Shown here one piece after another: positions 314-63,980 of a DNA stretch of 64,000 nucleotides. The notes below the pieces were generated by a model. The model saw only the letters and a program-made list of their open reading frames with translations. It was not told the origin of the DNA and ran no database searches. Source of the DNA: a virus; IMG/VR virus record IMGVR_UViG_3300017971_000023, positions 23,218 to 87,217 of that record; one strand, 5' to 3'. The stretch's first letter is position 1; each line of letters begins with the position of its first letter. The position numbers and the translations under genes are program-made.

Positions 314-382
314 TATAATTCTCCTTTAAATCAGCCTCGCTTTTTGACTGCCTCATCAGTACCCAGTTGTCAGGCTGGATAG

Positions 383-401
383 ATCCCCTCATAGAGGGGA
401 T
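383..401 (-). other. Intergenic hairpin between two leftward genes
   Basis: A perfect 8-bp stem (ATCCCCTC/GAGGGGAT) with a 3-nt loop sits in the gap between the genes at 409-669 and 68-313. On the minus strand it is not followed by a U-run, so it is more likely a processing, stability or attenuation element than a full terminator. Confidence 0.45.
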
Positions 402-408
402 TTCGGCT

Positions 409-55774: not shown

Positions 55775-55804
55775 ATTATAACATCTTTTAACTCTTATTT
55801 TGAA
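55775..55804 (-). promoter_or_regulatory. Probable leftward promoter downstream of the polymerase gene
   Basis: Read on the minus strand: TTCAAA (55804-55799), 18-bp spacer, TATAAT (55780-55775). It would start a transcript about 20 nt before the zinc-binding protein gene at 55750. The -10 is perfect; the -35 matches 4 of 6. Confidence 0.5.
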
Positions 55805-58800
55805 GGCCGAGTGCTTTGATTATTTGAAAGAAGCGTTTCATTCCAATATTGAATAGGTGTTTGCTATCCGGATTGTGTAGGGTAGCTGCGGGGTGAAGAC
55901 ACCATACTATCCATGCGCCAATTCTTTCGTCCCAAGTGACTTTTCCACTCATATCTGTTATGCCACCTTTTTTTCCAGTGAAGAAGTAAAGAGCCGACGC
56001 GCCGAATGCGAGAATTACTATAGGTTTGACTTCTTTAATTTCTTCTTTCAGCCACTTTTTGCCGCACACCTTGATCTGTTTTTCACTTGATTTTTTTGAA
56101 TGTTTTGGATAACATTTATTAACATTGGTTACATGGAAGTTATCTCGTTCGTAACCACGGGCTTTTACTTTCTTCCATATTAGTTCTCCACTTCTTCCAC
56201 AGAATGGAATTCCTTCTTTGTCTTCTTCAAATCCAGGGTCTTGTCCAACCATCATTATGTTATATCTCCCCGAAGAAGGAGGTACGGGTTGATTACATTC
56301 TTCGATAAGACTACAAGTTGTGCATCGTAAAAGATTGTCAAAGCCTTTGAATCTTCTTTTTCGAATAATGGTTTTTCTCTTAGATAAGGAATACAAATAC
56401 TTCCTTTCACCTTCGAGGATTTGATCCAATCTATCAAGTCTGATTTTGTTATCGTAGAGTTCATATAGCCTCCTGTAGTAATCTTTTGGATTGGTAACAA
56501 CACGGAAATCAAATTTTGACTTTACTTCTTTAGAAATTTGAGTTTTCTCATTTATGTCATATGCACCTATCTTTTCTAATAGCTCACCAAGGGAGCCCTT
56601 ATGTCGCGGGATTTGTTTTGATCTTTTACCAAACCATTTACCAGTACTTTTATTATTTTCTGAAACAGATGCTTGCTTTGCTTTGACTACTCCAAGACCT
56701 TTTACTTCGATGAATGGAATGTGAAGCTTTTTTTCTTTTGATGTCCATCGCATTGGGTCGCTGATATTGACTTTCGGCAGTACAAGAGTTAGGCCCAAAC
56801 GATAAGCTTCTTCGACAAGTTCGGGCTTCTTTTCTTTTGCACTGTATGTAAGCGAAGCGCATAGAAATTCTGTTGGAAAGTTATTCTTTAACCAAGAACA
56901 CCAATATGCCAGCATAGCATATTCAACAGCGTGAGCCCTGTTGAATCCGTATTTGGCCCATCTTTGAAGTCCTCTCCAAAATTCTTTTGCTTCTTCTACC
57001 GAGAAGATTCTTTCTTTTTTGCATCCCTTAATAAACTGCTTCTTATACTTTGCAAATTCCTTAGGATCTCTCTTCTTGCCAATAATTTTGCGTATCTTGT
57101 CGGTTGTATTATACGGAAGTCCTGCCACTTCGTTGATGACTGCCATAACCTGTTCCTGATATACCAGGAGCCCATAGGTGTCTTCAGTAATTCTCTCATA
57201 GACCTTGTGTTTTCTTTCCCATTTTTTACCATGTTTTCTCCTTATATATTCTTCGGTCATTCCACTTCCAGCAGGTCCGGGTCTGGAGAGCGATACAACA
57301 GCACTAATATCCATAAACTTTTCGACACCCATTTCTTTTACTACTGAAGTGGTTGCGTAACCTGTTAGTTGAAATATACCAGTGGTGTTTCCATTGCTTA
57401 AATCTTTGTAGACTTTACTATCATCGAGGTTCAAGTTTTCAAAATCAATATTGTAGTCATGATTTTTTTTGACGAGCTTTTTTGTTTCAGAAAGTATGGA
57501 TAATAATTTTAATCCAAGAGCATCTAATTTCATGAGGCCAGCATATTCAGTGTCGTCCTTTTCCCAATTTACTAATATCGTATCTTTTCTGCTTATTAGA
57601 TTGCATCTACCGCTATCACCTATAGGTGTTTGAGATAACACAATGGCGGCAGCGTGTTGACTATAACCACGAACTTGACCTTCAAGGTGTTTAGCATACT
57701 TTACTACAACTGGATATTTTTCTTGGAATTCTCGCCCTTCTTCGTAAGTTTCTATAGCTTCTTGGATTCCGGTATGGTCATCATTGTCTTCAATTAGTTT
57801 CGTAAATCTATTTACTTCTCCATCTGGAACTTCAAAGACGCGACTTACATCCTTTATAACTGCTCTTGCTTTCATTCTGTTAAAACTGCTGACATTTGCA
57901 ACTCTTTCTTTTCCATAGACTGTTTCCAGATGCTGTTGTGCAAGATGTCTTTTGGAATGTTCAAAGTCAATGTCGATGTCCGGAAAGTCAATGCGGTCTT
58001 CGTTAATAAATCTATCAAATATAAGATTATATTTTATTGGATCAACTGAAGTAATACCAATGAGATAAGCTATTAAAGACGCGCCGACTGAACCTCTTCC
58101 AGGACCGAGAAGAATGTTGTTTTCACGGCACCAGTCAACGAATTCCCAAACTATGAGAAAATATCTAATAAATTTCTTCCTTTTTATAAGTTTAAACTCT
58201 TTTAAAAAACGTCTGTTGTACGTCCTGTTCGCCTTAATACTTTGTCCAAATTTATTTTTAAACCCTTCATAGCATATTTTTTTTAGGAAGTCAGCTTCCT
58301 TAAGACCTATACCTTTTCCTTTTACTCGTGGCAATTTGACTTGTCTCCTTGGAATCTCGTATTCACCACACTTCTCGGCAATCTCCAAGGTGTTATGTAG
58401 ATAAGAACGTTTATACATTCCTATCTTTCTCAATTTTGATTCCATTTCTTTCCAAGTTCTCAAATGTAAGCCTCTAATATTAAACTTCCAACGATTTTTA
58501 TCTGTCCATTTAGCTTTACGTTGGATTGCAAGAAGTATTTCCTGAGCCTTCCAATCACTACGGTCTATGTAATGGCAGTCATTTGTTACGATTATTTTGT
58601 TTCCAGTATGCTTGGAAAGTTTTAACATCTTCTTGTTAAAATTGATTTGTGGAGTTGTAGCATGTGGCATGATTTCGCAATATAAATCATCCCCAATTGA
58701 GTCTTTCAATTCATAAAAAAAATCAATTCCATTAATGAAAACATTTGTCCAGGAAATCATACAGGCAGTTGATATGACAAGACCTTCGCAACATTCTAAT

Positions 58801-59171
58801 AATTTGCTATAAGTAAATCTTGGACGGTAGTAAAATCCGTCAATATTTGCAAAGGTAAGTAGTTTGCATAGATTTTCAAATCCGGTTTGGTTTTTAACCC
58901 ATAAGCAGATGTGACCTCTTTTATTACTTTTCTTCGTTAAGTTGTTATCGGGAATTATATAACCTTCACATCCAAGTATTGGAATTATACCGTATTCCCT
59001 GCAGTCTTTTTGGAATTTAATAAGACCGTCTATATTCCCGTGATTAGTTAACCCGAGATATTTGAAACCCAGCCCTGATGCCCTTTGAGCGTAAGCCTTA
59101 GAAGTTCCAAATCCATCAAGTTGGGAATACTCATTGTGTATGTGAAGGTGACAGAAATCTTTGTTTTTCAT
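55788..59171 (-). CDS. DNA polymerase III alpha subunit (DnaE) fused to uracil-DNA-glycosylase domain
   Basis: 1127 aa. PHP domain (about 5-210; HLHIHNEYSQLDG, GCEGYI, TNDCHY); palm with catalytic acids in FPDIDIDF; GRGSVGASLIAYL; YSQHAAAIVLS; KLDALGLK; YGLLVYQEQVM; fingers GFNRAHAVEYAML. Instead of the usual OB/tau-binding C-terminus, residues about 944-1127 form a family-4-like UDG. It has four Cys (950, 953, 1020, 1036; CxxC...C-x15-C) for a 4Fe-4S cluster, GQDPGFEEDKEGIPFCG, and HPAAT. Likely the replicative polymerase with built-in uracil surveillance. Confidence 0.92.
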   Translation of the reverse strand: MKNKDFCHLHIHNEYSQLDGFGTSKAYAQRASGLGFKYLGLTNHGNIDGLIKFQKDCREYGIIPILGCEGYIIPDNNLTKKSNKRGHICLWVKNQTGFENLCKLLTFANIDGFYYRPRFTYSKLLECCEGLVISTACMISWTNVFINGIDFFYELKDSIGDDLYCEIMPHATTPQINFNKKMLKLSKHTGNKIIVTNDCHYIDRSDWKAQEILLAIQRKAKWTDKNRWKFNIRGLHLRTWKEMESKLRKIGMYKRSYLHNTLEIAEKCGEYEIPRRQVKLPRVKGKGIGLKEADFLKKICYEGFKNKFGQSIKANRTYNRRFLKEFKLIKRKKFIRYFLIVWEFVDWCRENNILLGPGRGSVGASLIAYLIGITSVDPIKYNLIFDRFINEDRIDFPDIDIDFEHSKRHLAQQHLETVYGKERVANVSSFNRMKARAVIKDVSRVFEVPDGEVNRFTKLIEDNDDHTGIQEAIETYEEGREFQEKYPVVVKYAKHLEGQVRGYSQHAAAIVLSQTPIGDSGRCNLISRKDTILVNWEKDDTEYAGLMKLDALGLKLLSILSETKKLVKKNHDYNIDFENLNLDDSKVYKDLSNGNTTGIFQLTGYATTSVVKEMGVEKFMDISAVVSLSRPGPAGSGMTEEYIRRKHGKKWERKHKVYERITEDTYGLLVYQEQVMAVINEVAGLPYNTTDKIRKIIGKKRDPKEFAKYKKQFIKGCKKERIFSVEEAKEFWRGLQRWAKYGFNRAHAVEYAMLAYWCSWLKNNFPTEFLCASLTYSAKEKKPELVEEAYRLGLTLVLPKVNISDPMRWTSKEKKLHIPFIEVKGLGVVKAKQASVSENNKSTGKWFGKRSKQIPRHKGSLGELLEKIGAYDINEKTQISKEVKSKFDFRVVTNPKDYYRRLYELYDNKIRLDRLDQILEGERKYLYSLSKRKTIIRKRRFKGFDNLLRCTTCSLIEECNQPVPPSSGRYNIMMVGQDPGFEEDKEGIPFCGRSGELIWKKVKARGYERDNFHVTNVNKCYPKHSKKSSEKQIKVCGKKWLKEEIKEVKPIVILAFGASALYFFTGKKGGITDMSGKVTWDERIGAWIVWCLHPAATLHNPDSKHLFNIGMKRFFQIIKALGLQNKS

Positions 59172-61139: not shown

Positions 61140-61811
61140 TTAATCGCCCCCAGCACCAACCCCACAACCACCTGGACCGTTTGCCCCACCGCCTTGCCCT
61201 CCTGGGCCTCCTGCACCACCACCAACACCATGACCACGCCCTCCATGCCCAATACCATGACCATGACCTTGACTACCAGAAGAATTGCCTGGATTATCTC
61301 CATCGACTCCCCCAGCGTCATTACCATGACCGTGATCTGCATCACCGCTACTGCCCGAACCACCGCTACCGCTACTGCCCGATCCACCGCTACCGCTACT
61401 GCCCGAACCACCGCTACCGCTACTGCCAGAACCTCCAGAACCTCCAGAACCTCCAGAACCTCCAGAACCTCCAGAACCTCCGCTACCTCCAGGTCCACCA
61501 CCAACACCACCAGAACCCTCTGGACCGCTTACACCGCCAATGGGTGAATTTGAAGCAGTACCGTCAATTCCGTTCATTTCACCTGAATTAGAAGTTGAAT
61601 CTTGTTGACCAACAGATGCTGAAAACCGTCTAATTTTTTGTTGGCATAAGGATGGATACTTTTTGCAGATTTCTTCCTGAGTCATTCGCCTGTAGACGAT
61701 TCCAGTTTGGGTGTCAACCCAATGACTTACACCATCACGCTTGTATCTTGTTTCTTGTGAACACGAAAAAAGAAGTAGTAGAACGAAAATCAATAAAAGT
61801 AGTTTTTTCAT
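61140..61811 (-). CDS. Gly/Ser-rich, His-rich lipoprotein
   Basis: MKKLLLLIFVLLLLFSCSQ is a lipoprotein signal (Cys17). About 60 residues of mixed sequence follow, then a long Gly/Ser region (about 95-155) of GGS and GSGGSGSS repeats, and a Gly/His-rich end (HGHGIGHGGRGHG) that could bind metal. The C-terminus is again Gly-rich. It lies in the early/replication arm. It could coat the infected cell, sequester metal or block superinfection; all are inference. A tatagGAGG site precedes the ATG. Confidence 0.65.
   Translation of the reverse strand: MKKLLLLIFVLLLLFSCSQETRYKRDGVSHWVDTQTGIVYRRMTQEEICKKYPSLCQQKIRRFSASVGQQDSTSNSGEMNGIDGTASNSPIGGVSGPEGSGGVGGGPGGSGGSGGSGGSGGSGGSGGSGSSGSGGSGSSGSGGSGSSGSGGSGSSGDADHGHGNDAGGVDGDNPGNSSGSQGHGHGIGHGGRGHGVGGGAGGPGGQGGGANGPGGCGVGAGGD
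61351..61479 (-). repeat. Tandem repeats in lipoprotein gene (24 nt x3, 9 nt x6)
   Basis: Three 24-nt units at 61351-61422 (one base differs between copies) encode GSGGSGSS-type repeats. Six 9-nt units at 61426-61479 encode GGS repeats. Likely to vary in copy number. Confidence 0.85.
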
Positions 61812-62580: not shown

Positions 62581-62715
62581 TTATTTTCTCCTATCTTCAA
62601 GTTTTGTAATTTCAATCTTTGCTAAGAATTGTCTTAATCTTTTACCTGCCTTTTCTCCAATTCTTATCATTTTAGCAATTTTTCTGTATTCTTCTTTCGT
62701 TAATTTAACTTTCAA
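62581..62715 (-). CDS. Hypothetical basic 44-aa protein, TTG start
   Basis: AGGAG lies 7 nt before TTG 62715. The helical basic peptide has KVKLTKEEYRKIAKMIRIGE and stops just upstream of the next gene. It is the first gene after the structured RNA, so that RNA could control it. Confidence 0.5.
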   Translation of the reverse strand: MKVKLTKEEYRKIAKMIRIGEKAGKRLRQFLAKIEITKLEDRRK

Positions 62716-62731
62716 GTTGATTCTCCTAAGT

Positions 62732-62841
62732 TTGGCACGAGGCACAAGCCCTTATTGCATTTAAGCTTTACACTTGCAATCCGGTTCACCGCTTCTCGCA
62801 GTGCCGAGTGTAATTGATTATATCAACGTGCCTCGCGCCAA
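62732..62841 (-). ncRNA. Candidate multi-branched structured RNA of unknown class
   Basis: Read leftward, a 14-bp closing stem (62841-62828 with 62745-62732) encloses several helices. There is TTGAT/ATCAA; a TTACACT/AGTGTAA stem that holds CGG/CCG and CACTGC-GAGAA-GCGGTG; and AAGC/GCTT. An extra ATTGCA/TGCAAT pairing could form a pseudoknot. Two imperfect pairs are G-U wobbles on the minus strand but A-C mismatches on the plus strand, which supports a leftward transcript. It fills the space between two leftward genes and could be a cis-regulatory element or a free RNA. No known class recognised. Confidence 0.6.
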
Positions 62842-62843
62842 GA

Positions 62844-63980
62844 TTAAAAGTCAATTGACCTAATTTTTACTTCGGCGTCAATACCGTATTCTGAAAGGAG
62901 TTCTTCGATGTTTTCTCTTATTTCCTTTTTTGCTCTTTTTATGCCACTTTCAAATTCAGGCATAAAACCTAAGTCACGAGCCATTTCCACTGGGTAGTGA
63001 TCTTTGCATGGAATCTCGGGTGGTTCAATAGGTTTTCTACGTTCGTTTCTTGCTTCTATATAATCCATTGCGAAGCCTGTTTTTTGATATGAAATTCTTT
63101 TCTTAACTCGCATATGTTCTAAATATTTTTCATGGGCCTCTTCAACAGTAATGTTGTCTCTAATCATGTAGTGATAACAGCGGTACGCTCTTAGTTTTCT
63201 TGATGATCTATGAGTCATTTTTTCTCTCATTATATAATTTTCCCCAAGGGCAGCAAATAGTTCAGTTGAAATTCTTCCAACTTTTTTAATTTTTTTCTTC
63301 AATGACTCTGCCATCATTTCATTACTTATTGGCCCATGTTTTTTCATCAACCAAATAACTTTTCTCGCTATGGTTGTACATTCTTCTGGAAATGCTGTAA
63401 TTTTGACTTCACGAACTTTCGTCACCGTACTAATTTCTGCGACAAAGTCTTTGTACATTCTCCATACTGTTGAAACTGATATACGGTTATGAATTTGGTA
63501 CTCGTATGGATTTCCTCTTGTTTGTCTGGTTCTGCGGATTATTGCCATTGTAGTAGATCCATCAGGCATGCTTTTATCTTCGTGTTTTAGATTATGATTT
63601 TCGAGTACTTTATACACATAACTAATATACGGCGAAACTGATCCATGGCTTAAAATAGATTTTATTTCATTTGCTGTGATTGGGCCATGGTGCTTCATTA
63701 GCCAAATTATCTTTTCAGCCTTTGTTTTATATTGTGATGGAATTTTCATATTACCGTATTCCTTTCTTATTTGATCTTTTGTAAAATGAAGAACTTGTCC
63801 GGGTTTGGTGTTATGCTTTGACTTCATTTTTACTGAAGGCTTTCTCCCTTTACAAAGTGAATGACTTGTTTCCATTTTTACGTGTTCAAAAACGCCTTCA
63901 TCAAAGTCTGTATTGTAGTACTTTGACTTTTCCACTGCATCACCCTCAAATGTAATACCATTTAAATTATTTTCTTTCAT
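62844..63980 (-). CDS. Duplicated winged-helix-like DNA-binding protein
   Basis: 378 aa. Two related segments, AEKIIWLMKHHGPITANEI (about 88-106) and ARKVIWLMKKHGPISNEMM (about 204-222), resemble the first helices of winged-helix domains, so the protein has two. Basic overall. Candidate replication initiator or transcription regulator of the leftward arm. ATAGGAGG precedes the ATG. The gene is complete at the right edge, and transcription probably enters from beyond the window. Confidence 0.6.
   Translation of the reverse strand: MKENNLNGITFEGDAVEKSKYYNTDFDEGVFEHVKMETSHSLCKGRKPSVKMKSKHNTKPGQVLHFTKDQIRKEYGNMKIPSQYKTKAEKIIWLMKHHGPITANEIKSILSHGSVSPYISYVYKVLENHNLKHEDKSMPDGSTTMAIIRRTRQTRGNPYEYQIHNRISVSTVWRMYKDFVAEISTVTKVREVKITAFPEECTTIARKVIWLMKKHGPISNEMMAESLKKKIKKVGRISTELFAALGENYIMREKMTHRSSRKLRAYRCYHYMIRDNITVEEAHEKYLEHMRVKKRISYQKTGFAMDYIEARNERRKPIEPPEIPCKDHYPVEMARDLGFMPEFESGIKRAKKEIRENIEELLSEYGIDAEVKIRSIDF

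Follow-up and report, generated by a model that had tools for sequence, protein, structure and literature searches.

A highly structured intercistronic RNA with a predicted pseudoknot in a phage replication operon

Genomic setting of the element

The window analysed here is a 64,000-nt stretch corresponding to positions 23218-87217 of the 87-kb IMG/VR phage record IMGVR_UViG_3300017971_000023. An intergenic gap of 128 nt (62716-62843) is flanked by two minus-strand genes and contains a structured RNA element, which occupies the gap from 2 nt past the stop codon of a 378-aa gene to 4 nt before the AGGAG of a 44-aa gene. The original prediction had the element filling the gap between two leftward genes, as it does, but placed it about 5 nt from the ribosome binding site (RBS) instead of 4 nt. 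RNA position k corresponds to window position 62842-k. The features of the locus are as follows.

62844-63980, minus strand: upstream 378-aa gene; family search gives weak helix-turn-helix-like matches, none confident
62732-62841, minus strand: whole structured RNA element; minimum free energy (MFE) -48.5, z -5.8, 0/200 and 0/1500 shuffles
62828-62841, minus strand: 5' arm of P1, 14 nt (fold; inverted repeat I1)
62813-62827, minus strand: P2 hairpin, 6 bp with a 3-nt loop (fold)
62769-62812, minus strand: P3 arm, consisting of P3 (6 bp), a 7-nt 3' bulge, P3a (3 bp), an AA bulge and P3b (6 bp) with a GAGAA loop (fold)
62775-62780, minus strand: predicted pseudoknot arm 1, AUUGCA, RNA 62-67, in the P3 bulge (complementarity, shuffle test)
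62746-62768, minus strand: P4 hairpin, 6 bp with an 11-nt loop (fold)
62754-62759, minus strand: predicted pseudoknot arm 2, UGCAAU, RNA 83-88, in the P4 loop (complementarity, shuffle test)
62732-62745, minus strand: 3' arm of P1, with a single G-U pair between G6 (62836) and U105 (62737) (fold; inverted repeat)
62723-62727, minus strand: Shine-Dalgarno (SD) sequence AGGAG of the 44-aa gene, predicted to pair with the upstream gene's end (0.95)
62581-62715, minus strand: gene of a 44-aa basic protein, TTG start at 62715 (family search)

The sequence 3' of P1 is ACUUAGG. The family search with the 44-aa protein gave no match below E = 0.06, and a search for relatives of the 378-aa gene found none. 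The minus strand also carries the genes that follow, through DNA polymerase, and the operon containing the element is a replication operon without hammerheads. A DNA polymerase III alpha-type polymerase (55788-59171, minus strand) is fused at the C-terminus to a uracil-DNA glycosylase-family domain, and the same strand encodes, at 61140-61811, a putative lipoprotein of 223 aa in which Gly/Ser-rich repeats form a long tract.

A search of the minus strand from the element to the contig end gave no sigma70-like promoter, and downstream of the element there is no terminator. The element itself does not have the G+C stem and following U-run of an intrinsic terminator. Because co-directed genes flank the gap, and neither a sigma70-like promoter before it nor a terminator behind it was found, the simplest view is that the element is co-transcribed with them. 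Given its place in the operon, the element is very likely a real RNA transcribed within it.

Fold, pseudoknot and alternative pairing

The minus strand of 62732-62841 folds with an MFE of -48.5 kcal/mol, while dinucleotide shuffles reach -29.2 ± 3.4 kcal/mol (z = -5.8). None of 200 shuffles in a first run and none of 1500 in a second, independent run is as stable. A fold no better than that of shuffled sequence had been named as one outcome that would speak against the original prediction; the element's fold is clearly better, and by this generic measure it is a structured RNA. Its MFE is the lowest in a scan of the whole window, both strands, with 110-nt stretches taken at 20-nt steps. Its plus strand folds less stably, at -36.6 kcal/mol (z = -4.7).

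In the MFE fold, P1 closes a four-way junction with no unpaired junction bases and with P2, P3 and P4 as its arms. The closing stem, predicted at 14 bp, is 13-14 bp long with a marginal U1-A110 pair, and the expected three or more internal helices within 110 nt are present as P2, P3/P3a/P3b and P4. One detail of the original prediction does not hold: it counted two wobbles, both G-U on the minus strand, but the MFE fold has five G-U pairs out of 40. The strand argument built on wobbles is weak, since just one of these five lies within P1.

The MFE fold leaves two hexamers, AUUGCA in the P3 bulge and UGCAAU in the P4 loop, free of pairing, and they are perfect 6-bp complements. Only one of 1500 shuffles contains a loop-loop complement of six or more, so the suspicion of a pseudoknot was well founded. 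This complementarity supports a predicted bulge-loop pseudoknot between P3 and P4. The phage's own sequence together with related sequence, 1.9 Mb in all, yielded 888 four-way-junction candidates, of which the element is by far the most stable with a loop-loop complement of six. A chance fold in a spacer is a consideration for any single sequence chosen post hoc by a reader. It is nevertheless extremely improbable here, as no shuffle in 1500 matches the energy, one in 1500 matches the loop-loop complement, and the combination of stability and pseudoknot stands alone among the 888 candidates.

A nested rival fold pairs the same two hexamers and lies 0.8 kcal/mol above the MFE. It has P1 and P2 in common with the MFE fold, and the P3 and P4 pairings are swapped. 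Because the nested alternative is only slightly higher in energy, the two pairings may exchange. A ligand-sensing leader (riboswitch) could toggle between two such folds, and the SD of the downstream gene is predicted to be occluded. However, so small an energy gap is within model error, the SD pairing would be the sole expression platform, no known riboswitch is matched and the downstream 44-aa gene is an orphan. Nothing in the analysis specifically supports a ligand-binding riboswitch, and we consider it quite unlikely.

Homologue searches and comparison with known RNAs

Rfam 15 gives no family at the element at the gathering threshold; at E ≤ 10 there are three matches, none overlapping it. 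This Rfam search had been proposed together with the original prediction, and at either threshold the element itself is left without a match. Type II hammerhead RF02276 is absent at the element though present elsewhere in the window, no CRISPR-repeat family is found there by Rfam, and ARAGORN gives no tRNA or tmRNA in the window. Blastn against phages and plasmids returned nothing useful. Loop-pattern scans of IMG/VR gave no matches and then 24, and a scan of GTDB genomes gave 47; none of these was real after filtering with a covariance model (R1) built from the single sequence of the element. R1 also found no homologue in the records of 53 DNA-polymerase relatives, scanned in full. For a 165-aa gene, one relative was found, and the element is absent there. 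The absence of homologues is weak evidence, because such a single-sequence model does not reach beyond close relatives. The original description, a highly structured RNA of unknown class between genes, agrees with the fold and pseudoknot statistics, the intergenic place and the lack of an Rfam match, and the element looks real and new.

No second copy of the element occurs in the contig, nor in the collections searched by pattern or by blastn. A mobile inverted-repeat element (MITE) was therefore dropped, as such elements are multiple-copy. More broadly, the locus could function at the DNA level, as an inverted-repeat mobile element, a protein-binding site or an origin, with the RNA fold as a by-product; the inverted repeat of 14-19 nt with an 82-nt spacer would suit it. 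The internal helices and the pseudoknot complement would then be unexpected, the wobbles agree with the transcribed strand, no target-site duplication is seen by eye and the sequence is single-copy in the contig and the collections, so that we regard a DNA-level function as very unlikely. Retron, DGR or group II intron RNA was also dropped, with no PF00078 reverse transcriptase in the 87-kb record, which is possibly incomplete.

The four-way form of twister-sister (RF02681) contains a four-way junction and a contact between a loop and an internal loop. The element is similar in its junction and in its predicted loop contact. However, its docking arms are adjacent, whereas those of the published twister-sister structure are reportedly opposite, and it gives no Rfam match at E = 10 and no recognised consensus match. 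A permuted twister-sister was dropped as well, the docking arms being in the wrong order.

Long-stem elements found in relatives look real, but they were rejected as homologues because their branching and sequence differ. In relative G010, a 164-nt RNA with a 30-bp closing stem (L095:10810-10973, minus strand) resembles a stand-alone non-coding RNA: a TGCTATAAT-like box precedes it and a terminator-like hairpin follows. In relative G001, a 168-nt multi-arm RNA with a 20-bp closing stem (L002:646-813, plus strand) ends a few nucleotides before the GGAG of a 71-aa gene and has a promoter-like box about 100 nt upstream. A 144-nt element with a 21-bp closing stem (L023:7651-7794, plus strand) lies directly 3' of a tRNA gene cluster. 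In the window itself, about 1.5 kb at 979-2517 has no convincing gene and is a candidate large non-coding RNA or control region. It includes a strong multi-hairpin fold at 1011-1120 on the minus strand (-46.6 kcal/mol) and an imperfect inverted repeat of about 56 nt at 1013-1068.

A trans-acting small non-coding RNA (a decoy, anti-defence RNA or sponge) could be freed from the operon or transcribed apart from it. The paired ends and compact fold of the element are like those of stand-alone non-coding RNAs, and the G010 RNA, with its 30-bp stem, TATAAT-like box and terminator-like hairpin, resembles a unit of its own. Against this, the element has no promoter-like site upstream on the minus strand within the contig, no terminator and no CRISPR-repeat family match, and it ends right at an RBS. 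We consider a trans-acting role rather unlikely.

Structured RNAs in operon gaps and the proposed role

Type II hammerheads detected by Rfam lie in another leftward operon of this phage, at contig 14-24 kb, in intergenic gaps just before RBSs. In contig 14.3-23.6 kb of this genome (G000; L090, L091 and window 342-408, minus strand) a listing of the gaps shows about 13 sites resembling type II hammerheads, one in nearly every gap and each ending before an RBS; some of them fall below the gathering score, and a strict core scan gives nine. The arrangement is the same in relatives G003, G012 and G037. Type II hammerheads and their pseudoknots, hammerhead clusters and phage intergenic hammerheads (PaP3, Bcep176) are known (PMC3088659). 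Like the hammerheads of the same genome, the element is a predicted pseudoknotted RNA between same-strand genes and ends at an RBS. Unlike them, it is single-copy, has no Rfam match and lacks the CUGANGA/GAAA core, with a four-way junction in place of three helices around that core.

In relative G006, 17 aligned copies of a different structured element are found on the minus strand (L106:11911-19980 and L107:342-1539). It is about 75 nt long with the consensus AATTGAAACCGGGCAGG-hairpin-GCAGGTATCTCAATT, and the copies lie in gaps of leftward genes, each just before an RBS. No Rfam match is found in the 8.2-kb stretch tested, and in an IMG/VR search the element is confined to the G006 genome. 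Five pairs change on both sides, a number reached by none of 500 shuffles, although the copies come from one genome and the shuffles ignore kinship. Its 3' part has a further possible partner in a strand downstream (AGGTA.CTCA AUUA TGAG.TACCT), and in one copy all three strands differ together. The G006 element, placed where hammerheads lie in its relatives, may be a new class of ribozyme. That this close relative has swapped hammerheads for a covarying non-Rfam RNA suggests that different RNAs can fill the hammerhead role. The element studied here is likewise a non-Rfam structured RNA in an intercistronic gap before the RBS of a leftward gene; unlike it, the G006 RNA is repeated and covarying, lies in another operon and is unrelated in sequence and fold. 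With hammerheads in such slots here and another covarying RNA in G006, these phages seem to punctuate their messages and operons with structured RNAs. The slot of the element in the replication operon appears similar to the hammerhead slots, an analogy that is indirect because the replication operon has no hammerheads.

A serious rival, though an unlikely one, is a self-cleaving ribozyme of undescribed class that would cut the polycistronic message just before the 44-aa gene. The element has a compact multi-helix fold with a predicted pseudoknot and ends at an RBS; hammerheads occupy such gaps in the same genome and are expected to cut messages of the other operon; and G006 has replaced hammerheads by another covarying RNA outside Rfam. 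On the other hand, no ribozyme family is matched even at E = 10, the element is single-copy and in a different operon, unlike the hammerheads, and no conserved core is recognisable without homologues. It is somewhat less probable still that a new self-cleaving class, defined by a four-way junction and a bulge-loop pseudoknot, stands beside the hammerheads in a lineage that cuts its early messages by RNA catalysts.

The reading we favour, tentatively and short of even odds, is a cis-acting intercistronic RNA for the leftward phage operon, serving start-site control, coupling, stability or processing. From the computed fold and position, and from the computed lack of a sigma70-like promoter nearby and of a terminator, we infer a mechanism that comprises co-transcription of the operon, SD occlusion, and coupling, stability or processing roles. 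In the polycistronic message, P1 would close the gap into a four-way junction, held fast by the pseudoknot between the P3 bulge and the P4 loop. The likely role of this fold would be to punctuate the message where the 378-aa gene has its stop codon and the RBS of the 44-aa gene follows. P1 would bring the ends of both genes together, and its base would be prolonged into a predicted helix that pairs the upstream gene's end with the 44-aa gene's SD and start. Ribosomes completing the upstream gene, or refolding, would free the 44-aa start. The compact fold may also stop exonucleases or serve as a processing site.

The AGGAG of the 44-aa gene has a predicted pairing probability of 0.95, seventh of the 104 genes in the genome, and its predicted partner is mainly the end of the 378-aa gene. 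The TTG start is rare in the genome (4 of 104 genes). The flank extension that would occlude the SD is not significant alone, being equalled by 8-31% of shuffled flanks, and SD occlusion through it is kept as a suggestion. The predicted pairing with the upstream gene's end resembles SD-sequestering structures of translational coupling, but here it is a mere extension of a far larger fold. Processing sites of RNase III and intercistronic stabilising stems in T7-type phages also place a long stem in an operon gap. The element shares this feature with them; theirs is an irregular hairpin, whereas the element is a four-way junction with a predicted pseudoknot. The intercistronic reading also agrees with the location of the other structured RNAs of this phage and its relatives, just before the RBSs of leftward genes.

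The statistical case for a structured RNA is strong here; the element occurs once, carries a predicted pseudoknot and has no family assignment. In the phage lineage to which it belongs, operons are loaded with hammerheads; one relative has another unclassified repeated RNA in their place. If such RNAs are catalytic or regulatory, this lineage would be a place to seek new ribozyme or leader-RNA classes.
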